Shown piece after piece: positions 17,693 through 32,230 of a stretch of DNA of 62,450 bases. Source of the DNA: an uncultured Shimia sp. (GTDB taxonomy: Bacteria > Pseudomonadota > Alphaproteobacteria > Rhodobacterales > Rhodobacteraceae). Each line of letters starts with the position of its first letter. Position 1 is the first letter of the stretch. Position numbers and translations under genes: made by a program. Location: positions 1 to 62,450 of the forward strand of contig NZ_CAJXIV010000014.1 in the NCBI RefSeq assembly GCF_913054185.1. Direction: 5' to 3'. Under the pieces are notes generated by a model, which had not been told where the DNA came from, did not search any database, and saw nothing but the letters and a program-made list of their open reading frames with translations.

Positions 17693-18742
17693 TTACGGTG
17701 CAAACCCGAGGATCAGTTGCTTTAGGCCGACTGCGGCGCCAACCATAATGCACAACAAGGTAAGTGGAGCGCTGTAAGACAGGACCGAGAATGCTGACAA
17801 TCCCTGTCCAACACTGCAACCAACCGCAACAACAGCACCAGTGCCCATGAATGCGGCGCCTAAAATTTGTCGCCGCAGCTCGCGGGGATCATCGCAGGAT
17901 TCCCATCTGAAGTGGCCCATATACAGGCTGCCAATCAAGGCTCCGATCAGAACCCCGATGACTGAACCTGTGCCAAAACTAATCGAATTGCCTGAGGACG
18001 TCATAAGAAACAGCATCGTTTCGCCAATGGGGGCTGAAAATGTGTGGCTGACAACAGCGGTTGCATCAAACCCGTTACTGGCCACCCAATAAGTGCCGGC
18101 CCACCCTAGCACTATCGCCAGCCCGGCAATGGCGCCCCAGAACACATGGCTGGGCGAATTCCGAAGTGTTTTGCTTGTCAAAGTCAGCGCAAGAATAACC
18201 GCCCCGATTATTATGCCTGTGACCTCCGTTGAGATCCCGGTCAACGTTGTGGCCAGTTGGGCGAAGGTGGGAAAATTGGATGCCTGCTCTGATGCTCCAA
18301 ACATCCAAATGCGCAGCGAAGACAGTGGGCCGCCCAACGTGACATAAGCGGAAATGCCCATCACCAGAACAATCAATAGGGAGCGCAGATCGCCGCCGCC
18401 GACACGCGCCAACGCGCCGTATCCGCAGTTGCCGGCGAGGGCCATGCCATATCCAAACAGCAGCCCGCCAAATATGCTCTCCAATGGGTTCCATTGTCGC
18501 GACAGATAGAGAGTTTCACTCAGGTCAAGCAAACCCGCTGCGGCGAGACCAAAGGTTCCCATGACGGACAAACCAATGGCGATACCCCACATGCGCAGTC
18601 GCAGAGTATTCTCACCATAAAACAAATCTTCTATGGCGCCCAAGGTGCAGAACCGACCGATGCGTGCGGCAAGGCCAAGCAGCAAACCGCCCACTAGGCC
18701 GACGAGGGCCACAGCTATGGGTTCAGAGACCAAATCAAGCAT
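17693..18742 (-). CDS. soxT: YeeE/YedE family sulfur-compound transporter (SoxT-like)
   Basis: 349 residues and about nine to ten hydrophobic segments, inner membrane. Three conserved cysteines needed for thiosulfate movement in YeeE occur in the expected motifs: FCTLGA (Cys32), GNCGYG (Cys106) and GCSVGQG (Cys309). Family members import thiosulfate or related sulfur anions through stepwise hydrogen bonding with these thiols. It is the third gene of a leftward unit soxS-soxR-soxT, 42 bases after soxR. A second paralogue sits on the other side of soxV at 20391-21452. Confidence 0.88.
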   Translation of the reverse strand: MLDLVSEPIAVALVGLVGGLLLGLAARIGRFCTLGAIEDLFYGENTLRLRMWGIAIGLSVMGTFGLAAAGLLDLSETLYLSRQWNPLESIFGGLLFGYGMALAGNCGYGALARVGGGDLRSLLIVLVMGISAYVTLGGPLSSLRIWMFGASEQASNFPTFAQLATTLTGISTEVTGIIIGAVILALTLTSKTLRNSPSHVFWGAIAGLAIVLGWAGTYWVASNGFDATAVVSHTFSAPIGETMLFLMTSSGNSISFGTGSVIGVLIGALIGSLYMGHFRWESCDDPRELRRQILGAAFMGTGAVVAVGCSVGQGLSAFSVLSYSAPLTLLCIMVGAAVGLKQLILGFAP

Positions 18743-18784: not shown

Positions 18785-19123
18785 TCAATCGTCGTCGCGA
18801 CAAAAAAGATCATAGACAACTTCCATGATCTTTTTGGGCCGGTCATCGGTCAAGCTGTAATAGATGACTTTACCGTCACGTCTGGGTGTCACCAGCCCCT
18901 CAAGCCGAAGCCGGGACAATTGCTGAGACACCGCAGCTTGTCGCGATGACAGAAGGTTTTCGAGTTCGGTCACAGACTTTTCACCGGAGGCGAGGTGACA
19001 CAAAATCATCAATCGCCCCTCGTGGCTGATCGCCTTGAGGAAATAGGAGGCTTTCATGGCATTGTCTGCCATCTTGTCCATGTCTTCGGCACACATGTTA
19101 CTGTCAAATACTGGCAGGCCCAT
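18785..19123 (-). CDS. soxR: ArsR family sulfide/persulfide-responsive repressor of sox genes
   Basis: 112 residues from the ATG at 19123, chosen for the AGGAAGAG 6 bases upstream. Winged helix of the ArsR type (EKSVTELENLLSSRQAAVSQQLSRLRLEGLV, about 48-78; RRDGKVIYYSL as the wing). Cysteines fall at 11, 42 and 108, matching within one residue the Cys9, Cys41 and Cys107 of Rhodobacter SqrR, where the latter pair forms a tetrasulfide and releases DNA. It is therefore probably the thiosulfate/persulfide-sensing repressor of the cluster; candidate operators are at soxV, soxX and soxB promoters. Not related to the MerR SoxR at 851-1342. Confidence 0.92.
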   Translation of the reverse strand: MGLPVFDSNMCAEDMDKMADNAMKASYFLKAISHEGRLMILCHLASGEKSVTELENLLSSRQAAVSQQLSRLRLEGLVTPRRDGKVIYYSLTDDRPKKIMEVVYDLFCRDDD

Positions 19124-19188: not shown

Positions 19189-19557
19189 TCATCCAGATAC
19201 ATCAATGCTGGCGTTCGACAACATCTGCCCTAACAATCCCCAGAAAAAGTCCTCTCCAGGATATCCTTCGATCCTGGAGACTTCTTGTCCGTCGACCATC
19301 AGAACAAATGTAGGCGTGAAGTTAAGTGATTTGCTGAACGCCAAATCATCCGGCGTCGCCGCATGGATGTCCATGCGTCGTAGAGGCGCGGCTTTGCCCT
19401 CAGTGGTCTTGGGATAGATATGGGCAATCTCATCGTTCCAGCGCGCGCACCAGACACACCCCTGTTCTTCCACCATCACCAGAACAGGCTCAGCCGTAGC
19501 GGAGAATGCCGACGATAGGCTTAGAAACAGGCTGAAAAGGATAGGGCGGAGCGACAT
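19189..19557 (-). CDS. soxS: Periplasmic thioredoxin-like protein SoxS
   Basis: 122 residues from the ATG at 19557, giving a Sec signal (MSLRPILFSLFLSLSSAFSATA). Active-site CVWC at residues 34-37 and the cis-Pro loop NFTPTFVLMVDG near residue 83 define a thioredoxin fold. SoxS is known to keep the SoxY cysteine active by thiol exchange, fed with electrons by SoxV. It leads the leftward unit ahead of soxR, divergent from soxV across 70 bases that hold a shared control region. Confidence 0.9.
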   Translation of the reverse strand: MSLRPILFSLFLSLSSAFSATAEPVLVMVEEQGCVWCARWNDEIAHIYPKTTEGKAAPLRRMDIHAATPDDLAFSKSLNFTPTFVLMVDGQEVSRIEGYPGEDFFWGLLGQMLSNASIDVSG

Positions 19558-19563
19558 GCGAAA

Positions 19564-19609
19564 TTGACCTTTGCTTAACAAACAACGTAATATGAATATT
19601 TGAATTATA
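19564..19609. promoter_or_regulatory. soxS-soxV divergent promoter with AT-rich operator
   Basis: Rightward promoter TTGACC (19564-19569) and TAATAT (19588-19593), spacer 18. An AT-rich dyad around AATATT (AATATGAATATTTGAATT, 19589-19606, 12 of 18 positions symmetric) covers the -10. Contains one GAAT half-site with ATAT where the other ATTC would be, a weaker match to ATTC-N8-GAAT than the soxX site. Confidence 0.55.
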
Positions 19610-19627
19610 CAAGAGCGAGCGCCTGTC

Positions 19628-20368
19628 ATGATGGAAATTACCCTTGCGGGCGCTGCATTTGCGGGCGTCTTGTCATTTTTGTCGCCATGTATCTTGCCAA
19701 TTGTGCCGTTCTATCTGAGTTATTTGGCCGGCGTTGGCATCAATCAGATTTCTGCTGAGGCACAAGTGGACAGACACACGCGGTTGCGTGCCGTGTTGGC
19801 CGCTTGCTTTTTTGCGGCGGGTGTAATTACGATTTTCATGGGGCTTGGAGCTGCGGCAACGGCGTTTGGTCAAGCAGTACGTGAATACTTTGATTTTTTG
19901 CGGTGGTTTGCAGCGGCGCTTATTGTTGCAATGGGTTTGCATTTCCTCGGGTTCATCCGGATCGGGCTGCTGTATCGGCAGTTGCGCACCGACGCCGGCA
20001 GCACGTCCAAAGCTGGCCTTATGGGGGCCTATGCTATTGGTTTGGCCTTTGCGTTTGGGTGGACCCCTTGCGTAGGGCCAGTACTGGCCGCGATCCTGTT
20101 CACAGCTGCGGGTGCAGAGACCGCTTCATCCGGGGCAGGGCTGTTGTTTGCGTACGGACTGGGTATGACGGCGCCGTTTGTGCTGGCGGCGTTGTTCATT
20201 GGTCCGTTCATGAAGTGGATGTCAAAGTTTCGCAGGCACCTGGGAGTGGTTGAGAAAACCATGGGTGCTATGCTGATTGTGTTCGGACTGCTGATTGCAA
20301 CAAACTCAATCAACGTTATTGCACAATGGATGCTGGCCATTGCGCCGGATATCGGTGTGTTGCGCTGA
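19628..20368 (+). CDS. soxV: CcdA-family membrane electron carrier SoxV
   Basis: 246 residues, six to seven hydrophobic segments. Two membrane cysteines in the CcdA/DsbD positions: SPCILPIVPF (Cys21) and WTPCVGPVLA (Cys148). Carries electrons from cytoplasmic thioredoxin across the inner membrane to SoxS (and SoxW where present). Start at the first of two adjacent ATGs. The soxW gene that usually follows is absent; the next gene is convergent. Confidence 0.93.
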   Translation: MMEITLAGAAFAGVLSFLSPCILPIVPFYLSYLAGVGINQISAEAQVDRHTRLRAVLAACFFAAGVITIFMGLGAAATAFGQAVREYFDFLRWFAAALIVAMGLHFLGFIRIGLLYRQLRTDAGSTSKAGLMGAYAIGLAFAFGWTPCVGPVLAAILFTAAGAETASSGAGLLFAYGLGMTAPFVLAALFIGPFMKWMSKFRRHLGVVEKTMGAMLIVFGLLIATNSINVIAQWMLAIAPDIGVLR

Positions 20369-20390
20369 TCCTGCGTGGCGGGCGTCGCGA

Positions 20391-21452
20391 TCATGTAGTT
20401 TGGGGCGCACCACGCTGATCCACCAGCCAATCCGTTGCCATTGCGCCAATCCACATGCTGAACAGGGCCAGCCAAGCTGTGCCGACAAATATGGATCCTC
20501 CGGTTACACCAGCCCCTATTGCACAGCCGCCGGCCAGCATTCCGCCAAAACCCATCAGCGCAGCTCCAACCATCGCCTTGCGCATGGTCGGCGCATCATC
20601 AAAGGCCTGAAATTTCAACTCTCCTGCCAGAGCGGCCGCAACAAAGGCGCCGACAAACACGCCTGGCACCAGGCCTATGTCAAATTGCAAGACAGACTCG
20701 CGTTCGAGAAAGAACATCAGTGTATTGGCCGATGGTCCTGTGAAGGTAGCGCTTTCTACTTGTACCGGATCAAAGGCGATCAAGCTTAACGCGTAGGTTA
20801 GGACCCAACCCAGCGCCACGGCAAAACCAACACCTGAGGCAAACACTAGGCGCGCTGCGCCAATCTTGTTGCGGCGTGCAAGAATCAGGGCCAGTGTCGC
20901 TACGCCAATTCCGAAGAGCAGGCCAGAGTGGTCGGGTAACCTGGTCGCAGCCAGCAAATCGATGTTGAGCCCGTCACTGGTGACCCAGATAGAGGCCAAT
21001 TGGTTGCGCAGTGGAGACAGGCTGCCGGACAGGCTCATCTGAGCCACAACGGCAAAAATCAGCCCTGATACCACCGAGCGCAGGTTGCCGGTGGCAGCGA
21101 GCACCAATAGCCGTCCAGAACAGCCGCGGGCGAGCACCATGCCAACGCCAAAAATGAGTCCGCCGATTATGGCACCTGACCAGCTGCCAGGGACCGCCAT
21201 CATGCGGGCGCTGGAGGACTCCATCAGGCCGAGCAGTTGGGCACCTTGCACCCAAACGAGCGCAGTCGAGAAAGTGAGCAGCCAAACAGCGACGCTGCCT
21301 TGCATCTTGCCGCGGGCAAATTCAACCGTGGCAGCACGCAGGCAAAACCGTGATCGCTGGGCAGAGGCGCCAAACACTACTCCAGTGAGTAACCCGAAAA
21401 GGGCCGCGGTAGGGGCTTCGCCGATCTGCTCAACCAGGGTGATCAGGTCCAT
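20391..21452 (-). CDS. YeeE/YedE family sulfur-compound transporter, second copy
   Basis: 353 residues from the ATG at 21452 (GGAG 6 bases upstream; a longer frame has no site). About nine to ten hydrophobic segments. The three YeeE cysteines are kept in motifs RFCLRAATVEF (Cys37), RGCSGRLL (Cys111) and GGCAIGAGVTGGS (Cys310). Only moderately like the copy at 17693, so it is an old paralogue and possibly moves a different sulfur species. It lies between soxV (convergent, 22-base gap) and soxX (divergent). Confidence 0.87.
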   Translation of the reverse strand: MDLITLVEQIGEAPTAALFGLLTGVVFGASAQRSRFCLRAATVEFARGKMQGSVAVWLLTFSTALVWVQGAQLLGLMESSSARMMAVPGSWSGAIIGGLIFGVGMVLARGCSGRLLVLAATGNLRSVVSGLIFAVVAQMSLSGSLSPLRNQLASIWVTSDGLNIDLLAATRLPDHSGLLFGIGVATLALILARRNKIGAARLVFASGVGFAVALGWVLTYALSLIAFDPVQVESATFTGPSANTLMFFLERESVLQFDIGLVPGVFVGAFVAAALAGELKFQAFDDAPTMRKAMVGAALMGFGGMLAGGCAIGAGVTGGSIFVGTAWLALFSMWIGAMATDWLVDQRGAPQTT

Positions 21453-21703
21453 GATGTGCTCCAATCCATTCACACATTGCGATATGTGGTGATATTTGTG
21501 AAGCCCGCTTTGATGCAGATCATTTTTTGACTCACCTGAGAGTTTGCAGAGATTACAGGCAAAAAGTGTATACAAAATGTGCGTTCAGGTGTGCCGTCAC
21601 ACTGGAGGTAACACATTGATTGATAGTTGTAAAAGTGAGGCGCAGGTGCACGGGCAATCATCATGCTGGCGTTCTGAAAGACTTCGAAGTGCTCGGGCAT
21701 TTC

Positions 21704-21744
21704 TTGACCGTCGGACAAATACAAAAATTCATGTAAATGAATTT
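21704..21744 (+). promoter_or_regulatory. soxX promoter with 20-bp perfect palindromic operator
   Basis: AAATTCAT-GTAA-ATGAATTT at 21725-21744 is a perfect palindrome holding ATTC-N8-GAAT, the consensus described for SqrR. TTGACC at 21704-21709 is a good -35; a -10 17 bases on (ATTCAT) would lie inside the palindrome, so a bound repressor would block it. The remaining bases of the 355-base gap 21453-21807 hold no gene I can support. Confidence 0.78.
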
Positions 21745-21807
21745 GTTATTGCGTTTTCACAGAATCGTGCGGTACGTTGCGGCGAACTGAAGTGTTTGGG
21801 AGGACGC

Positions 21808-22263
21808 ATGAGGATCATCGGTTTATCAATCGCAGTTGCGGGATTTCTGGCAAATCCATTGGCCGCTGAGCCCGTGGCTCCAGGTGATGTCAAGTATGAG
21901 GATGGCGTCGTTGAAGCGTCATTGACTGGCGTGGCCGGAGACCCAGCTAATGGCCGGGATGTTTTCAAGAACAGAAAGCTGGGCAATTGTCTGGCTTGCC
22001 ATGTCAATGCAGACATGCCCGAGGAGTCGTTCCACGGTGAAGTCGGCCCTGAAATGACAGGTGTTGCGGATCGGTGGGAGGCACAAGAGCTGCGCGCGAT
22101 CGTGGCCAATTCAAAAATGGTGTTTGAAGACAGCATCATGCCTGCGTTTTATCAAAATACAGGTTTTGAACGCACACTCAAAAAATTCGACGGCAAGACC
22201 ATCTTGACCGCGCAACAGGTCGAAGATGTCCTCGCGTATCTTCAGACTTTGAAAGACGAATAA
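21808..22263 (+). CDS. soxX: Sulfur-oxidation cytochrome SoxX
   Basis: 151 residues from the ATG at 21808, preceded by GGGAGGA. Sec signal ending PLAA near residue 20; heme-binding CLACH at residues 61-65; the distal Met of MPAFYQ near residue 112 is the likely axial ligand. SoxX pairs with SoxA in the periplasm and takes electrons when thiosulfate is joined to SoxYZ. First gene of the soxXYZA unit, behind the palindromic operator. Confidence 0.95.
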   Translation: MRIIGLSIAVAGFLANPLAAEPVAPGDVKYEDGVVEASLTGVAGDPANGRDVFKNRKLGNCLACHVNADMPEESFHGEVGPEMTGVADRWEAQELRAIVANSKMVFEDSIMPAFYQNTGFERTLKKFDGKTILTAQQVEDVLAYLQTLKDE

Positions 22264-22292
22264 TTTACCCGGACTCAATGGGAGGAAACGAA

Positions 22293-22715
22293 ATGGACCT
22301 AACACGTCGAAAAGTGCTTGCGCTTGGTACAAGCACATTTGCGATGGCATCGCTGACTGGTCTGCCGGCATTTGCATCGCTGACCGATGATGCGATTGCT
22401 GCCATAACTGGCGGAGCAGAAATCACTGAAGGCGGCATTGAATTGACCGCGCCAGAAATTGCGGAAAACGGGAACACCGTTCCGGTTGAAGTTGCGGCTG
22501 CTGGAGCTGTTGAGATTGCTCTGTTTGCATCTGGCAACCCAACACCTGCTGTTGCGACCTTCAAGTTCGGACCTCTGGCTGGATCTCGCTCCGGATCAAC
22601 CCGTATTCGTTTGGCAAAGACACAGGATGTCGTTGCGATTGCCAAAATGGAAGACGGCTCGTTCCACAAGGCAAGCGCAACCGTAAAAGTAACTATCGGC
22701 GGCTGCGGCGGCTAA
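22293..22715 (+). CDS. soxY: Sulfur carrier subunit SoxY
   Basis: 140 residues from the ATG at 22293 (GGAGG upstream). A twin-arginine signal (LTRRKVLALG) is present, followed by the SoxY beta-sandwich, and the protein ends in GGCGG, where the cysteine (residue 138) carries the sulfur intermediates. SoxZ, its partner, follows after 20 bases. The mature carrier works in the periplasm with SoxXA, SoxB and SoxCD. Confidence 0.95.
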   Translation: MDLTRRKVLALGTSTFAMASLTGLPAFASLTDDAIAAITGGAEITEGGIELTAPEIAENGNTVPVEVAAAGAVEIALFASGNPTPAVATFKFGPLAGSRSGSTRIRLAKTQDVVAIAKMEDGSFHKASATVKVTIGGCGG

Positions 22716-22735
22716 CTCAGACGAGGAGAACAACT

Positions 22736-23065
22736 ATGGCTTCTGGTGTAAAACCTCGCGTCAAAGTTCCAAAGACAGCTGCGGCTGGAGATATCATCAC
22801 AATCAAAACGCTGATCAGCCACAAGATGGAATCCGGTCAGCGCAAGGGCGATGACGGCAACCTCATTCCACGCTCGATCATCAATCGTTTCACGGCGGAT
22901 TTTAACGGGCAGAATGTGATTGACGTTACCGTTGAACCTGCGGTTTCGACCAACCCATATTTTGAGTTTGAAGCAATGGTCCCCGAGGCTGGCGAGTTCA
23001 AATTCACTTGGTACGACGATGACGGATCAGTCTACGAAACAGCGAAAAAAATCGCGATCGGCTGA
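22736..23065 (+). CDS. soxZ: Sulfur carrier partner SoxZ
   Basis: 109 residues, no signal peptide, as usual: it is exported together with SoxY by the Tat system. Typical SoxZ opening MASGVKPRVKVPKTAAAGD and closing FTWYDDDGSVYETAKKIAIG. It forms the immunoglobulin-like partner that stabilises SoxY. GAGGAG precedes the start. Confidence 0.95.
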   Translation: MASGVKPRVKVPKTAAAGDIITIKTLISHKMESGQRKGDDGNLIPRSIINRFTADFNGQNVIDVTVEPAVSTNPYFEFEAMVPEAGEFKFTWYDDDGSVYETAKKIAIG

Positions 23066-23093
23066 GGTCGGACAGAATAGGGAGGACGACCGA

Positions 23094-23930
23094 ATGAAGA
23101 CGCTAAAAGTACTGGTAAGTACGGCATGTTTTGTGGGGATGGCAGTCAGTACCCATGCGGAGGAATCCGCAGCGCTGTCGATTGACGGGCAAGAATTCAC
23201 AATTCAAACTGCGGCCCCAGCCCATGCGGAAAACCTTGACGAAGTGACCTCCGGGTGGATCTACCGTGCAAAAGAAACGCAGGCCTTACAGCTTGATGAT
23301 TTTGACAACCCAGGGTTTGTTTTTGTTGATCAGGCGATTGATCTCTGGAACGAGGTTGAGGGAAGCGAAGGCAAAGCTTGCGCCTCATGTCACGAGGACG
23401 TCGGGCAGTTTGCGGGTTTGCGAACCACATTGCCCCGAGTTGAAGATGGCAAAGTGGTCACCATGGAGGATCTGGTGAACACCTGCCGGACTGACCATAT
23501 GGGGGCCGAGCCCTGGAAGTATTCAGGCAGCCAAATAATTGCAATGACTGCCCTGATTGGCTTGCAGTCGCGTGGTATGCCAATGAATGTGGCCATCGAT
23601 GGTGAGGCTGCCGAGTTCTGGGAACAGGGCAGGGAGCTGTACTACACGCGCGTTGGGCAGCTGGATATGGCCTGTTCAAATTGTCATGAAGACAATTACG
23701 ACACGATGATCCGTGCGGACCATCTGAGTCAGGGTCAGACCAACGGCTTTCCGACTTATCGTCTGAAAAATGCCAAGCTGAATTCGACGCATGCTCGCTT
23801 TAAGGGCTGCATGAAGAATATTCGGGCTGAGCCATACAAAGTTGGTGGTGAGGAGTTCAAATCTCTCGAGCTGTATATCGCGTCGCGTGGCCAGGGGCTT
23901 TCCGTTGAAACGCCGTCGGTCCGGAACTAA
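23094..23930 (+). CDS. soxA: Diheme cytochrome SoxA
   Basis: 278 residues from the ATG at 23094 (GGGAGGAC upstream); the frame is open earlier, through soxZ. A Sec signal ends at THAEE near residue 22. Two CxxCH heme sites (Cys96-Cys99-His100 and Cys194-Cys197-His198) make this the diheme form. FKGCMKN contains Cys239, the active-site thiol that becomes a persulfide and transfers thiosulfate to SoxY. Last gene before a terminator. Confidence 0.96.
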   Translation: MKTLKVLVSTACFVGMAVSTHAEESAALSIDGQEFTIQTAAPAHAENLDEVTSGWIYRAKETQALQLDDFDNPGFVFVDQAIDLWNEVEGSEGKACASCHEDVGQFAGLRTTLPRVEDGKVVTMEDLVNTCRTDHMGAEPWKYSGSQIIAMTALIGLQSRGMPMNVAIDGEAAEFWEQGRELYYTRVGQLDMACSNCHEDNYDTMIRADHLSQGQTNGFPTYRLKNAKLNSTHARFKGCMKNIRAEPYKVGGEEFKSLELYIASRGQGLSVETPSVRN

Positions 23931-23940
23931 CAAAAATACA

Positions 23941-23973
23941 AAGCCCCAGTGCCTGACGGTATTGGGGCTTTTG
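23941..23973 (+). terminator. Terminator between soxA and soxB
   Basis: AAGCCCCA, 14-base loop, TGGGGCTT followed by TTGT, 10 bases after the soxA stop. Flanking ACAAA/TTTTGT extends the stem with one bulge. It divides soxXYZA from soxBCD. Confidence 0.75.
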
Positions 23974-23984
23974 TCCGCCCATAC

Positions 23985-24006
23985 AAATTCATATATGCGT
24001 ATATGT
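23985..24006 (+). promoter_or_regulatory. soxB promoter region with SoxR/SqrR-like operator
   Basis: CATATA-TGCG-TATATG (23990-24005) is a perfect palindrome; with flanks the site reads ATTC-N8-GTAT, one base off ATTC-N8-GAAT. Its left half AAATTCAT is identical to that of the soxX operator. TTGTCC at 23971-23976 could be the -35. Confidence 0.65.
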
Positions 24007-24026
24007 AACCACAACAAGGATCGACT

Positions 24027-25730
24027 ATGATTTCTCGCCGTGACTTTTTGCAAACCAGCATGGCCGCCGCCGCGCTTTATGGGACATCGGGGTTTGGAAA
24101 CTGGGCGCGGGTGGCCGCGCAGCAATCGCTGACACAGGACAAGCTTTTAGAGTTTGACACTTTTGGCAATGTCTCGCTGATCCATGTGACCGACATCCAC
24201 GCCCAACTAAAACCGATCTACTTCCGCGAGCCTTCGGTCAATATCGGGGTTGGGGGAAACAAGGGGGCGGTGCCCCATGTTACGGGTGCTGAGTTCCGCA
24301 AGCTGTATGGCATCGATGACGGCAGCCCATCCGCCTATGCGCTCAGCCACAGTGACTTCTCGTCCCTTGCAAAAGGTTATGGCCGCGTCGGTGGTCTGGA
24401 TCGTGTTTCGACTGTCATCAATTCGATCCGAGCGGCACGTCCGGATGCGCTGTTGCTGGATGGGGGCGACACTTGGCATGGCAGCTACACCTGTCATCAC
24501 ACCCAAGGTCAGGACATGGTCAATGTGATGAACGCGCTCAAGCCTGACGCTATGACGTTTCACTGGGAGTTCACGCTTGGGTCTGAGCGGGTGAATGAGA
24601 TTGTCGAGGGCCTGCCATTTGCGGCTTTGGGGCAGAACATTTTTGATGCCGAGTGGGATGAGCCAGCAGAGCTGTTCCCGCCGTACAAGTTCTTTGAAAG
24701 TGGCGGAGTGAAGGTTGCAGTCATCGGCCAGGCCTTCCCGTATATGCCCATCGCGAATCCTGGTTGGATGTTCCCCGAATATTCGTTTGGGATCCGGGAT
24801 GCGCACATGCAGGAGATGGTCGATCAGGTCCGCGCTCAGGGTGCGGAGTTGGTGGTTTGTCTCAGCCACAATGGGTTTGACGTTGATAAGCAGATGGCGG
24901 GCAAAGTGACAGGCATCGACGTGATCTTGTCCGGCCACACCCATGATGCGTTGCCGGAACCCGTGTTGGTTGGTGAAACCATTATTGTCGCGTCAGGCTC
25001 CAACGGAAAATTTGTCAGTCGCGTGGACTTGGATGTGCGTGATGGCCGCATGATGGGCTTTCGCCACAAGCTGATCCCGATCTTCAGCGATGTGATCACG
25101 CCTGACCCAGATATCGCACAATTGATTGATGCACAGCGAGCGCCGTATGTGGATCAATTAAGCGAAGTCATTGGTCACACTGCGGATGATCAGATGCTGT
25201 ATCGCCGTGGTAATTTTAACGGCACATGGGACGACTTAATCTGTGATGCACTGATTTCGGAGCGTGAGGCGGATATTGCTCTGTCTCCAGGTGTGCGGTG
25301 GGGGCCGTCTATCCTGCCGGGACAGGACATTACTCGCGAAGACATCTGGAACGTAACCTCGATGAGCTATGGCGAGGCTTATCGTACTGAGATGACAGGT
25401 GAGTTCCTGCATGTGGTGCTCGAAGATGTTGCCGACAATCTGTTTAATCCGGACCCATACTATCAGCAGGGCGGCGATATGGTCCGCGTTGGTGGCATTG
25501 GCTATCGGATTGATGTGACTAAGCCGCAGGGCAGCCGGATTACAGAGATGACGTTGCTTAAAACCGGCGAGCGTATTGATCCGTCCAAAACCTATCAGGT
25601 TGCGGGATGGGCGTCGGTCAATGAGGGCACCGAAGGTCCAAAAATTTGGGATGTGGTCGAAGCGCATATCGCCAAACAGGGCACCATCTCTCTTGACCCA
25701 AACAACAGTGTGAAAGTTGTCGGAGCCTAA
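24027..25730 (+). CDS. soxB: Thiosulfohydrolase SoxB (dimanganese)
   Basis: 567 residues. Tat signal (SRRDFLQTSMAAA). Releases sulfate from SoxY-bound thiosulfonate in the periplasm. Metallophosphatase-type ligands visible: DIHAQ (Asp56, His58), GGDTWHGS (Asp148, His151), HWEFT near residue 180, SHNG (His281) and SGHTHDALP (His304, His306). IGQAFPY and YRRGNF, the segments used for soxB detection, are present. Residue 178 before HWEFT is Phe, where I recall Gly in many homologues. Followed by soxC after 33 bases. Confidence 0.97.
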   Translation: MISRRDFLQTSMAAAALYGTSGFGNWARVAAQQSLTQDKLLEFDTFGNVSLIHVTDIHAQLKPIYFREPSVNIGVGGNKGAVPHVTGAEFRKLYGIDDGSPSAYALSHSDFSSLAKGYGRVGGLDRVSTVINSIRAARPDALLLDGGDTWHGSYTCHHTQGQDMVNVMNALKPDAMTFHWEFTLGSERVNEIVEGLPFAALGQNIFDAEWDEPAELFPPYKFFESGGVKVAVIGQAFPYMPIANPGWMFPEYSFGIRDAHMQEMVDQVRAQGAELVVCLSHNGFDVDKQMAGKVTGIDVILSGHTHDALPEPVLVGETIIVASGSNGKFVSRVDLDVRDGRMMGFRHKLIPIFSDVITPDPDIAQLIDAQRAPYVDQLSEVIGHTADDQMLYRRGNFNGTWDDLICDALISEREADIALSPGVRWGPSILPGQDITREDIWNVTSMSYGEAYRTEMTGEFLHVVLEDVADNLFNPDPYYQQGGDMVRVGGIGYRIDVTKPQGSRITEMTLLKTGERIDPSKTYQVAGWASVNEGTEGPKIWDVVEAHIAKQGTISLDPNNSVKVVGA

Positions 25731-25763: not shown

Positions 25764-27047
25764 ATGTCAGATAAAGACAACGAAACAAGTCGCTCGCGGC
25801 GTGCTTTCTTAGGTGGCGCTGTGGCTGCGGGGGCAGGGGCGCTGACAGCCGGTGCGGCCCGTGCGCAATCTCCGGACCCTTTGATCACCGAGATCCAGCC
25901 CTGGGCGCAAGAGTTTGGCGATGGTGTGGATGCGGTGCGCTATGGTCTGCCAACGGAACACGAGGGCGACGTTATCCGGCGCAACGTGGAATGGCTGACG
26001 GCGGATACGGTCAGCTCAATCAACTTCACGCCGATTCACGCATTGGATGGCACCATCACCCCACAGGGCTGCGCATTTGAACGCCACCATTCGGGGGCGA
26101 TTGATCTAAAAAAAGACGATTTCCGTCTGATGATCAATGGCTTGGTTGATACACCTTTGGTGTTTAGTTACGCCGATCTGGAACGGTTCCCGCGTGAAAA
26201 CCACGTCTATTTTTGTGAATGTGCGGCCAATACCGGCATGGAGTGGGCGGGCGCACAGCTGAACGGGGCGCAATTCACTCACGGCATGATCCACAACATG
26301 GAATACACCGGCGTGCCGCTGCGCACGCTGCTGGAAGAGGCCGGCCTGGATACGGCTGGCGATCTTAAGGACAAGTGGGTTTTTGTCGAAGGGGCGGATG
26401 CGTCGTCAAATGGCCGTTCCATTCCGATGGAAAAGGCGCTGGATGACGTTTTGGTTGCCTTTAAGGCCAACGGTGAAGCGCTGCGTAAAGAGCATGGCTA
26501 TCCTGTGCGTTTGGTTGTCCCCGGTTGGGAAGGCAACATGTGGGTCAAATGGATCCGCCGCATCAAGGTGACGGATGGTCCGGTGGAAAGCCGCGAAGAG
26601 ACCAGCAAATACACCGACACGCTCGCAGACGGGACCAGTCGCAAGTGGACCTGGGCGATGGATGCCAAATCAGTTGTGACCAGCCCCAGCCCGCAGGCGC
26701 CAATCAAGCACGGTACTGGGCCACTGGTGATCACCGGCCTGGCATGGTCCGGGCGCGGCGCAATTACCCGTGTGGATGTTTCCAAGGATGGTGGCATGAC
26801 CTGGGAAACGGCGCGGTTGGCGAAACCGGGAGAAAAGATGGCACTGACCCGGTTCTATCTCGATACCGACTGGGATGGCACAGAAATGCTGCTGCAATCG
26901 CGTGCAATGGATGACACCGGATATGTGCAGCCGACGAAGACGCAATTGCGTGAGGTGCGTGGGCTGAACTCGATCTATCACAACAACTGCATCCAAACTT
27001 GGCTGGTGCGGTCTAACGGTGAGGCAGAAAATGTCGAAGTTTCTTAA
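25764..27047 (+). CDS. soxC: Sulfane dehydrogenase molybdenum subunit SoxC
   Basis: 427 residues. Twin-arginine signal (SRRAFLGGAVAAGAGA). The sulfite-oxidase fold is shown by VYFCECAANTGMEW (Cys153 the probable Mo ligand), NGRSIPMEKALDDV near residue 215, PVRLVVPGWEGNMWVKWI near residue 245 and a C-terminal dimer domain (GLAWSGRGAITRVDVSKDGG). With SoxD it removes six electrons from the SoxY-bound sulfane sulfur. Its end overlaps soxD by 17 bases. Confidence 0.95.
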   Translation: MSDKDNETSRSRRAFLGGAVAAGAGALTAGAARAQSPDPLITEIQPWAQEFGDGVDAVRYGLPTEHEGDVIRRNVEWLTADTVSSINFTPIHALDGTITPQGCAFERHHSGAIDLKKDDFRLMINGLVDTPLVFSYADLERFPRENHVYFCECAANTGMEWAGAQLNGAQFTHGMIHNMEYTGVPLRTLLEEAGLDTAGDLKDKWVFVEGADASSNGRSIPMEKALDDVLVAFKANGEALRKEHGYPVRLVVPGWEGNMWVKWIRRIKVTDGPVESREETSKYTDTLADGTSRKWTWAMDAKSVVTSPSPQAPIKHGTGPLVITGLAWSGRGAITRVDVSKDGGMTWETARLAKPGEKMALTRFYLDTDWDGTEMLLQSRAMDDTGYVQPTKTQLREVRGLNSIYHNNCIQTWLVRSNGEAENVEVS

Positions 27048-28071
27048 ATCAACGGCATTGGCAGTGGCGATCGCCATGGTCGCCGGACCGGTTCTTGCCG
27101 AAAAATTTGGCCTGGGGCGCATGGCGTTGCCCGAAGAAATCGCCGCGTGGGATGGGGACATCAGCCCGGATGGCATGGGCCTGCCCGTAGGATCGGGTGA
27201 TGCATTGGACGGCGAGGAGATTTTTGCTGACAAATGCGCGTCTTGTCATGGTGATTTTGCCGAAGGTATCGACAATTGGCCTAAACTTGCAGGTGGCGCG
27301 GATACGTTGAACCACGACGATCCTCTAAAAACGGTTGGATCCTATTGGCCGTATCTGACAACCACTTTTGACTACATCAAACGTTCGATGCCTTATGGCA
27401 ATGCGGGCAGCCTCTCGGACGATGAGGTCTATGCAATGGTGGCCTACATTCTGTATTCTAACGATCTGGTAGAGGATGATTTTGTCCTGTCCAACGAAAC
27501 CTTTCTGGACGTTGAAATGCCCAACGCAAATGGGTTTATCATCGATGACCGGGCCGAGACGGAATATCCGGTGTGGACAGGTGAACCTTGTATGCAGAAC
27601 TGCAAGGATGATGTTGTTGTGACCATGCGGGCCTTGGTTTTGGACGTAACTCCGACACAGGAGAACGCCGCCAAAACTCCTGAGGCGGCTGAGGTGGAGG
27701 CAGAAGTTGTCGAAGCGGAAGCTGAGGTTGCGGAAACCACTGCTATCAACGCGGAACTGGCAGCAGCTGGGAAAAAGGTCTTTAAAAAATGTAAGGCGTG
27801 CCATCAAGTTGGTGAGGGCGCAAAGAACCGTACCGGGCCGATTTTGACAAATATTGTTGATGGCGCAGCGGGTGCGGTTGAGGGCTTCAAATACTCAAAA
27901 CCAATGAAGAAAGTTGCTGAGGCTGGATTGGTCTGGAATGACGCAGAGCTGTCCGCATTTTTGGCAAAGCCCAAAGCCTATATGAAAGGCACAAAAATGT
28001 CCTTTGCCGGCCTGAAGAAAGAGGCCGATCAGCGCGCACTTATCGAATACCTTCGATCATTTGATGAGTGA
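27031..28071 (+). CDS. soxD: Diheme cytochrome subunit SoxD
   Basis: 346 residues from the ATG at 27031, inside the end of soxC (GTGAGG upstream). Sec signal ends VLAEK near residue 24. Two c-type heme sites, CASCH (69-73) and CKACH (254-258), in two domains joined by an Ala/Glu-rich linker (about 215-240). The second domain resembles class I cytochrome c, with KGTKMSF giving the Met ligand near residue 326. It accepts electrons from SoxC. Confidence 0.95.
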   Translation: MSKFLKSTALAVAIAMVAGPVLAEKFGLGRMALPEEIAAWDGDISPDGMGLPVGSGDALDGEEIFADKCASCHGDFAEGIDNWPKLAGGADTLNHDDPLKTVGSYWPYLTTTFDYIKRSMPYGNAGSLSDDEVYAMVAYILYSNDLVEDDFVLSNETFLDVEMPNANGFIIDDRAETEYPVWTGEPCMQNCKDDVVVTMRALVLDVTPTQENAAKTPEAAEVEAEVVEAEAEVAETTAINAELAAAGKKVFKKCKACHQVGEGAKNRTGPILTNIVDGAAGAVEGFKYSKPMKKVAEAGLVWNDAELSAFLAKPKAYMKGTKMSFAGLKKEADQRALIEYLRSFDE

Positions 28072-29925: not shown

Positions 29926-30870
29926 TTATTCAAATTCCATTTGCTCATACACACGTCCAGCATTTTTGGTCGCAAGTTCTTCAAATGTATCGAGATTGGT
30001 GTAAGGCGACTGATCCACATAATAAGCGTCAGCCAAATCACCACCGTCATCCAGATGCGCGGCGATTTTAGCACGTAAGAACACCAAGTAATCCCGGGTA
30101 TAGCGCCGCACCTGATCCATATTGGTGGGATGACCGTGGCCAGGAATGACATAAGTTGCGTTGAGCGCTTCGAACTCGGTTTCCCACGTTTCGATCCAGT
30201 CGGCCGTCACCGTGTGCTCAAAAATTGGCAACATGCGTTCGTGAAAGGCCATGTCGCCGGAAATAACCAAGTTTTTTTGCGGCAGCCAAATGACGATGTC
30301 GCCGGGGCTGTGGGCCGGGCCAAGGTAGCGGGCTTCGATTTGAACCCCGCCCATCTCTACCAGATAGCTGTCTTCAAATGTCTGCGTTGGAAGGGCGACG
30401 CGGGTGTCGTCCGCTTTCTCCATCACCCGCGCCTGAGCCGCGCGCAAAGACTGCCCGCCATGGCTTTCAAATTCAGCAGCAGCGTCTGTGTGGGCCACAA
30501 TTTCGACCCCCTGATCAGCCCAATATGAATTGCCAAGCATGGCGTGGCCCTGGCCGTTTTCGTTGAACACCAGTTTTACCGGTTGATCCGTTACGGCCTT
30601 GATCTCCAGATGCAGCGCTTCAGCCAGTTGGTAGGACGCACCACCGTTGATCACCACCACACCGTCGCCGGTTATGATGAAGCTAAGGTTATTGTTGTGA
30701 CCAGCGTTTTCATAGGTTGGCGGGGCGGTGGCGCCAATCGCCGAGAACACGCCTGGAAGCACTTCGTATGGCTTCGAGTACAGCACTGAGCCGGGGTATT
30801 GATCAGCGATGTCTTCGCTGGCAAGGGCAGGGGCGGCAAGCAAGGCGAATGCGAGAATAGAATTTTTCAT
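29926..30870 (-). CDS. Periplasmic metallo-beta-lactamase-fold protein, SoxH-like
   Basis: About 314 residues from the third of three consecutive ATGs (30870), 7 bases after GGAGG. Sec signal (AFALLAAPALAS). MBL fold with late metal ligands in place (LGPAHSPGDIVIW, SGDMAFHER, VIPGHGHP), but the HxHxDH position reads NGQGHA, lacking the usual three histidines and aspartate. Similar proteins include SoxH and the quinoprotein-relay metallohydrolases of unknown substrate. It overlaps the preceding gene's stop, so the two form an operon facing hemA. Whether it still binds two metals is doubtful. Confidence 0.8.
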   Translation of the reverse strand: MKNSILAFALLAAPALASEDIADQYPGSVLYSKPYEVLPGVFSAIGATAPPTYENAGHNNNLSFIITGDGVVVINGGASYQLAEALHLEIKAVTDQPVKLVFNENGQGHAMLGNSYWADQGVEIVAHTDAAAEFESHGGQSLRAAQARVMEKADDTRVALPTQTFEDSYLVEMGGVQIEARYLGPAHSPGDIVIWLPQKNLVISGDMAFHERMLPIFEHTVTADWIETWETEFEALNATYVIPGHGHPTNMDQVRRYTRDYLVFLRAKIAAHLDDGGDLADAYYVDQSPYTNLDTFEELATKNAGRVYEQMEFE

Positions 30871-30872
30871 CA

Positions 30873-31805
30873 TCATGCCTCCGCCACAAAAGCATAGCCA
30901 TCAGACATTTTGTCGACATAGCCGATGCCATTTCCGGTCAAGTGGTAGCCAATCACGCGGGTCTTTTCATGTGACAGTTGATCCATCAGAGTGGTGCGCG
31001 TTGTGGCCGCTGTTTCTGGGTCTTGGTCTGACCCGGAAATCCAGCCAGGCCGTGCAAACGCGATGTGGTCGTTGCCAATGCTATCCCCCAGAACCATTAC
31101 TGCTTCGGACCCACTGCGTATTTCCAGCGCCATGTGACCGGGGGTGTGTCCAACCGTTGCGCGCGCGGCGATGCCTGTCATAAATTCTTCTCCGTCCTCA
31201 AAAAACGTAATCTGATCCTCGATCATCGCTAACCTGCGCTGTGCGCCAACGGCAAAAGACGCACGCGCCTCACCGATGTCATCTACGGTGTTGGGGTTCA
31301 TCCAATAATCCCATTCCGTTTTGCCAATCATGTAGCTGGCCTCGGGAAAGTGCGGGTCGTCAAAATCGTCCAGCAATCCCCACAGGTGATCTGGGTGCGC
31401 ATGGGTGAAAATTATGTCTGTCACGTCGTCTGGAGAGACTCCCAAGGCACCTAGAGAGTCCAATAGAGCCCCGGTATTCGGAGAGAAATCTGGCCCGGCT
31501 CCGACGTCAAACAAGACGGTCCGATCCCCATGTCGCAGCAGGGTAACATTGCAAGGAGGGGTCAGAACCTCGGCGGATTGGCCATGTTCTTTTAGAATGG
31601 GGAGCAGTTCATCTTTTGGCATTGGGTCGAATATGAAACCGCCCGGCAATGTCAGAGAGCCGTCGCTGACGACGTCAATTTTGAAGTCACCCAGCGCGAG
31701 TTGGGCATGTGATGGTCCCGAGTATAGGCCGAGCGCTGCGCCTGCTGTGAGTGCAGCACTGCCGGCAAGGAATTGTCTTCTGGTTTTGGTCATCACGTGC
31801 TCCAT
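30873..31805 (-). CDS. Tat-exported metallo-beta-lactamase-fold hydrolase (SoxG/SoxH-like)
   Basis: 310 residues. Twin-arginine signal (KTRRQFLAGSAALTAG). Full dimetal site: THAHPDHLWG near residue 123, GHTPGHMA near residue 207, LGDSIGN near residue 227 and GYHLTGNG near residue 290. Both the ATG at 31805 and that at 31793 have GGAG at good spacing. Paracoccus soxGH encode comparable hydrolases at the end of the sox locus; substrate unknown. A half-palindrome with ATTC-N8-ATTA (31816-31831) lies over its likely promoter. Confidence 0.83.
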   Translation of the reverse strand: MEHVMTKTRRQFLAGSAALTAGAALGLYSGPSHAQLALGDFKIDVVSDGSLTLPGGFIFDPMPKDELLPILKEHGQSAEVLTPPCNVTLLRHGDRTVLFDVGAGPDFSPNTGALLDSLGALGVSPDDVTDIIFTHAHPDHLWGLLDDFDDPHFPEASYMIGKTEWDYWMNPNTVDDIGEARASFAVGAQRRLAMIEDQITFFEDGEEFMTGIAARATVGHTPGHMALEIRSGSEAVMVLGDSIGNDHIAFARPGWISGSDQDPETAATTRTTLMDQLSHEKTRVIGYHLTGNGIGYVDKMSDGYAFVAEA

Positions 31806-32230
31806 TAATTCTCCTATTCGAATATGTATTAATGTCCGGCTTGGAGCAAGGCTTTAGGCGTGAAACCTACAGGCGAAATTGAAGGTGCACTTTGTCAAGA
31901 ACTCGGTGCGATGCCTGTTTCTATAAGACGTCGGACAGTATTGTAGATAGGACGGACGAACTACTTTCCCATTCCCGTCCAGTATTAGGGCTCGCCTCGC
32001 ACAGTCCGACAATGGCCTCGATGTAAGGTGGCCGGCAGAGCCTTTGTCCAATGCCAGTCGGTTCCCTTTGGGTGCACCGTCCCACCTTCTATGGTACAAA
32101 ATTGCCGTCAATTGTTTCCGCAGTTGGCACGGCTTTTCCAGACCGCGTCTCCACGCAAATGTCTGACAGTAACCGATTTTGACTTAAGTGAGACCGCACG
32201 AATTCTCTTCCCCCAAGCACACAGATGCAG

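Follow-up and report, generated by a model that had tools for sequence, protein, structure and literature searches.

The sox gene cluster in the stretch of DNA considered here, the 62,450 nucleotides of contig NZ_CAJXIV010000014.1 from an uncultured Shimia sp. (positions 1 to 62,450 of the forward strand, assembly GCF_913054185.1; hereafter the window), very probably carries a SoxR regulon, in which one repressor would act through related predicted operators at several split transcription units. SoxR regulation of this kind is already published for other alphaproteobacteria (PMC10451225, PMC12423496, PMC11582611). In the window soxT1-soxR-soxS lie on the minus strand and are followed by soxV, soxT2 (minus strand), soxX-Y-Z-A, soxB-C and a cytochrome gene in the soxD position, beyond which lie genes for a DUF302 protein, for a class I/II aminotransferase and, in minus orientation, for two metallo-beta-lactamase (MBL)-fold proteins. 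An earlier sequence-only reading had placed the split sox units under one SqrR-like repressor, and the comparative data favour this, in that a matrix derived from soxX operators predicts the sites before soxB and at the MBL unit, although it misses the one that the window has between soxS and soxV.

The predicted soxX operator lies at 21725..21744 and is, as had been proposed, a perfect palindrome with arms of 8+8 base pairs (bp), AAATTCAT-GTAA-ATGAATTT, inside which an exact ATTC-N8-GAAT stands at 21727-21742. Comparison was made with 80 loci (the best 80 of 278) and with 29 soxR loci (L010-L038), and the region sets comprised 73 soxX upstream regions (window included), 98 soxS-soxV regions (the own locus being counted three times) and 75 soxA-soxB regions, with dinucleotide shuffles giving the chance expectation for motif counts in sox regions. 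The exact motif is present in 51 of the 73 soxX upstream regions where 0.9 would be expected, and a de novo motif search across 69 soxX upstreams returned ATTCA..TGAAT at 23.2 bits, as compared with 9.2-9.4 for shuffled sequences.

A symmetric matrix was then made from 43 distinct exact soxX sites, no soxB, soxS-soxV or MBL site being entered. The soxX site of the window scores 30.8 bits and ranks first, by construction because soxX sites built the matrix. Second in the window is the predicted soxB operator at 23987..24002, an ATTC-N8-GTAT with one mismatch (16.5 bits, scored over 23981-24008), and third is the MBL-unit operator at 31808..31823, an exact ATTC-N8-GAAT (16.3 bits, scored over 31802-31829), while the next match reaches 3.0 and 12.6 is the highest score from 20 shuffled windows. 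By comparison, the soxX, soxB and MBL sites are more than chance matches. The dyad CATATA-TGCG-TATATG noted earlier at 23990-24005 before soxB is indeed there, and what had been taken for a 'weaker half-site' at 31816-31831 actually overlaps the exact motif of the MBL unit. This MBL-unit operator covers the AGGAG ribosome-binding site (by eye), reaches at least 14 bits in 10 and at least 4 bits in 17 of the 28 upstream regions scored, that of the window among them, and is retained in Planktomarina-type loci although the bases differ. Of the ATTC-N8-GAAT dyads claimed for three sox promoters, related sites are found at all three, the exact motif at soxX only.

At the soxA-soxB boundary 6 exact and 37 one-mismatch sites were counted in the 75 regions (0.6 and 6.2 expected), some of the one-mismatch sites falling on the first bases of the soxB reading frame. 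Since a de novo motif search of these regions picked up the opening of the soxB coding region and not an operator, their last 22 bases were removed before matrix scoring, and 35 of the 75 then reach at least 8 bits with the soxX-derived matrix, 0.0 being expected. Between the two genes is a terminator-like hairpin (23940..23971, plus strand; −24 kcal/mol, z −5.2), and a hairpin with a T-rich tail, by our own stem and T-rich-tail rule, is found in 40 of the 75 regions. Hairpin and operator tend to go together: 29 regions have both, 11 the hairpin only, 6 the operator only and 29 neither (Fisher p 2e-6, uncorrected for relatedness). Hairpin and predicted operator lie between soxA and soxB, and the terminator-like hairpin after soxA suggests a need for a promoter of soxB's own and hence its own operator, a suggested reason for a separate soxB switch.

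Recognition of the soxS-soxV site is less straightforward. The AT-rich dyad reported at 19589-19606 between these genes was borne out, if in imperfect form, as a degenerate candidate SoxR operator ATAT-N8-GAAT with two mismatches at 19590..19605. It falls inside a conserved block, though it is not significant alone, and the 98 soxS-soxV regions hold 4 exact and 52 one-mismatch sites against 0.3 and 10.9 expected, with 41 of 96 reaching at least 4 bits by the soxX-derived matrix where 1.3 would be expected. The poor left arm may possibly be explained by the overlap of the operator with the −10 box of the soxV promoter, TTGACC-N18-TAATAT (19564..19593, plus strand). The TTGAC of this promoter is identical in 15 of 15 aligned sequences and the promoter is listed by a promoter scan, which found 5 promoters in the window against 3.8 expected from shuffles. 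Of the −35/−10 promoters earlier assigned to the dyads only this one stood, the TTGACC of soxX and the TTGTCC of soxB being absent from the three loci closest to the window (L039-L041) and unlisted by the scan. Directly downstream of the soxX operator a different candidate soxX promoter, TTGCGT-N18-TACGTT, may be placed at 21749..21778 (plus strand); its TTG and TA positions are conserved in a 16-sequence alignment, and it has no entry in the consensus promoter scan.

The presumed repressor is encoded by soxR (18785..19123, minus strand; 112 residues), an ArsR-family protein matching HTH_5 (PF01022) at 38.7 bits, above the gathering cut-off of 22. It shares 66 of 105 aligned residues (62.9%) with SqrR (PDB 6o8k) and scores 92.5 bits against the BigR model NF040642, which is under the curated cut-off of 155. 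It is named SoxR and not SqrR because of gene order: the soxSRT-group order by sox genes is present in the window as soxT1-soxR-soxS, and among 97 related soxR loci soxR-soxS stand beside a divergent soxV in 94 and soxT1 stands beside soxR in 85. The three cysteines earlier likened to those of SqrR, Cys11, Cys42 and Cys108, are all present, and Cys42 and Cys108 do align with SqrR cysteines, but Cys11 aligns with Ala and the N-terminal Cys of SqrR with Met10. In 94 SoxR relatives Cys108 is kept in all 94, Cys42 in 88 (Trp in the other 6) and Cys11 in 41.

Residue 61 of SoxR may set the choice of operator. Leaving out the window, SoxR was aligned for 62 soxX loci, and the exact operator occurs in 46 of 52 with Arg61 and in 0 of 10 with Pro61. 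The Pro61 loci (L088, L091, L097, L100-L102, L104, L106, L108, L118) are from Hoeflea, Oricola, Mesorhizobium and Rhizobium; in 8 of these ten the site is ATTC-N8-(A/C)TAT instead. An ArsR protein from the Ruegeria pomeroyi megaplasmid went unused in these comparisons, there being no sox genes annotated within 5 kilobases (kb) on each side.

Other accounts of the sites have been weighed against a SoxR regulon. The bare count of exact ATTC-N8-GAAT motifs in the window, 3 against 1.00 expected with 8 of 100 shuffles reaching 3, is not significant and was rejected as evidence, and in that sense accords with the dyads being chance AT-rich matches; this is hardly credible, as for the soxX, soxB and MBL sites conservation and cross-prediction contradict it. 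Nor is it at all probable that the sites are bound by some regulator other than SoxR, such as a second ArsR-family protein. The genome (176 contigs, about 94% complete) does contain ten ArsR-type helix-turn-helix matches, yet SoxR is the single strong match to the BigR/SqrR-type model, at 92 bits with the next at 29, and the soxR-soxS pair seen beside divergent soxV in 94 of the 97 loci faces it across one of the sites. Rather less improbable, though still unlikely, is the account by which SoxR acts, as in earlier-described systems, at soxX and between soxS and soxV alone, while transcripts begun at soxX run on into soxB, the palindrome before which belongs to another regulator or is a promoter relic. 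The single mismatch in the soxB site, its being missing at 8 bits from 40 of the 75 regions and the failure of a terminator scan to list the hairpin after soxA are in keeping with read-through, whereas the 16.5 bits and second rank of the soxB site exceed the shuffle maximum of 12.6, and the stability of the hairpin (−24 kcal/mol, z −5.2) together with its co-occurrence with the operator across the 75 regions speak against read-through.

Several observations nonetheless tell against one SoxR regulon as drawn here. The soxB operator at 8 bits or above is confined to 35 of the 75 regions, mostly those of the loci nearest the window, no conserved soxB promoter could be named, and the soxA-soxB hairpin is not among the terminators that the terminator scan lists. 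The soxS-soxV site of the window scores −2.9 bits and ranks 13, such that the matrix alone would miss it. A second match to SoxR was also counted in the genome. Because the compared loci are related, counts across them are not independent, and because Arg61 and Pro61 follow descent the link between residue 61 and the operator is confounded.

Under the SoxR regulon reading, the ArsR-family dimer would bind a palindrome near CAWATTC-N8-GAATWTG at soxSRT/soxV (so allowing for autoregulation), at soxXYZA, at soxB and onward, and at the soxGH-like MBL pair, and would block initiation when sulfur substrate is lacking. Sulfane sulfur derived from thiosulfate would bridge Cys42 and Cys108, the bridged SoxR would release the DNA and the units would switch on together. 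For the binding, the dimer state, the bridging by sulfur and the release we draw on published SoxR and SqrR work. The SoxR of Hyphomicrobium denitrificans is described as a repressor of sox genes that responds to sulfane sulfur (PMC10451225, PMC12423496), with polysulfide bridging its two cysteines and so ending binding (PMC10451225), segments of the sox cluster that bind SoxR have been reported from the genus Paracoccus (PMC10451225), and SoxT1B is presented as a signal transduction unit for SoxR (PMC11582611). A SoxR system so far seen in a few model species would thereby be extended to a regulon map that can be tested in roseobacter-type thiosulfate oxidisers.

The window protein resembles the SoxR of H. 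denitrificans, Paracoccus pantotrophus and Pseudaminobacter salicylatoxidans in being of ArsR type, in belonging to a soxSRT group (PMC11582611) and in its predicted action on sox genes. A conserved cysteine pair is likewise shared with published SoxR (PMC10451225), Cys42 and Cys108 being equated with Cys50 and Cys116 of Hyphomicrobium through the SqrR alignment. With the SqrR of Rhodobacter capsulatus it has in common the aligned cysteine pair, a near-identical helix RQAAVSQQL and the exact ATTC-N8-GAAT at the presumed targets soxX and the MBL unit; unlike SqrR, its gene context is sox and Cys11 is not at the position of the third SqrR cysteine. The deduced SqrR site is quoted as ATTC-N8-GAAT in PMC9774250, according to which the YgaV footprint at ygaVP holds a sequence like it and that at katG, also bound by YgaV, holds none. 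BigR and YgaV are of the same subfamily as the window SoxR, which lies below the BigR cut-off. In contrast to the published SoxR systems, operators are predicted here before soxB and at the MBL unit, and soxT2 stands between soxV and soxX. Rother (2005) and Mandal (2007) reportedly located SoxR binding at the two upstream segments, those of soxX and soxS-soxV. A literature search in which subscription journals were poorly covered brought up no report of a SoxR operator at soxB, the MBL pair or tsoY.

In 24 kb of P. pantotrophus DSM 11072 scored with the soxX-derived matrix, the site before soxX ranks first (−0.4) and that between soxS and soxV third (−6.0), absolute scores being low. A stretch downstream of soxC there is 69% identical to the SoxH-like MBL protein of the window, and a 54% relative of the SoxG-like MBL protein adjoins it. 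The SoxR of this strain (L199 12001-12297) has no Cys in the Cys108 column, and its last residue is Cys.

A genome scan for ATTC-N8-GAAT, which had been suggested at the outset, gave 31 exact places against 9 for a reversed-pattern control, and the 22-bp form with at most two mismatches gave 61 against 7; matrix scoring covered all 31 exact places and a part of the mismatch places. The best match outside the window and outside evident reading frames is before a TsoY-family gene on contig 8 (31576-32875; L149 4074-5382), the product of which scores 508 bits (cut-off 150) and has 404 residues with many hydrophobic segments, pointing to a multi-pass membrane protein. This tsoY is preceded by two sites, which score 12.3 and 6.1 bits. 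Of the 149 genomes searched 43 have a match, and in the regions upstream of tsoY from 30 of these, the own one among them and the expectation being set by single-letter shuffles, an exact site is present in 18 where 0.15 would be expected, and two sites 24-26 bp apart are present in 9 where 0.05 would be. Set against this, 10 of the 30, the closest relative (L170) among them, lack any site with one mismatch or fewer, and in the own genome the spacing of the two is 57 bp rather than 24-26. It is slightly more likely than not that a SoxR/SqrR-type operator governs tsoY in the Rhodobacterales family to which this genome belongs, through operator pairs spaced 24-26 bp in about a third of cases, with SoxR here linking sox, the MBL pair and tsoY and with TsoY handling or transporting sulfane sulfur. 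PMC13188914 names TsoY, with no function given, as a selenoprotein near the 'three selenoprotein operon', and on the reading above this uncharacterised family would gain a first lead in sulfane-sulfur biology.

Further genome matches, inside reading frames, were taken as chance: C16:32679 (14.4 bits) in an aldehyde-dehydrogenase-like frame named by eye, C6:31694 (9.8 bits) in a CoA-transferase frame, and C67:17401 (9.5 bits), C72:13092 (8.9) and C28:9780 (7.3) in open frames. One more match, of 6.2 bits, is on the DUF938 side of C56.

As to the genes themselves, soxT1 (17693..18742, minus strand) encodes a YeeE/YedE-type sulfur transporter adjoining soxR (Pfam Sulf_transp, 214 bits). Divergent from soxV is soxS (19189..19560, minus strand), named from the usual sox gene order and with no NCBIfam match. 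The CcdA/DsbD-like soxV (19628..20368, plus strand) is assigned by synteny, both TsoB and DsbD models being below cut-off. Models above cut-off identify, all on the plus strand, soxX (21808..22263, TIGR04485), soxY (22278..22715, TIGR04488), soxZ (22736..23065, PF08770), soxA (23094..23930, TIGR04484), soxB (24027..25730, TIGR04486) and soxC (25764..27047, TIGR04555). The cytochrome c protein that follows (27019..28071, plus strand; cytochrome models below cut-off) is presumably SoxD by gene order. On the minus strand the MBL pair consists of a SoxH-like protein (29926..30876; TIGR04559 SoxH_rel, 142 bits, below cut-off) and one with a twin-arginine (TAT) signal (30873..31805; 141 bits with the AidB lactonase model, under its cut-off) that is SoxG-like by position.

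The second YeeE/YedE-type transporter gene, soxT2 (20391..21452, minus strand), lies between soxV and soxX, and the TsuA models score it below cut-off. Upstream of it a tentative weak operator may be drawn at 21468..21483 (matrix −1.4), in an island conserved in 4 of 4 close sequences. Also upstream of soxT2, TTGATGCAGATCAT at 21510-21523 is conserved in the window and L039-L041, and we take it to be an FNR/Crp-type box. In the window and in these same three loci soxT2 is reversed between soxV and soxX, with a soxV-soxX gap of 1443-2122 bases; in three other checked loci the gap is 704-761 bases, presumably the usual place of soxW.

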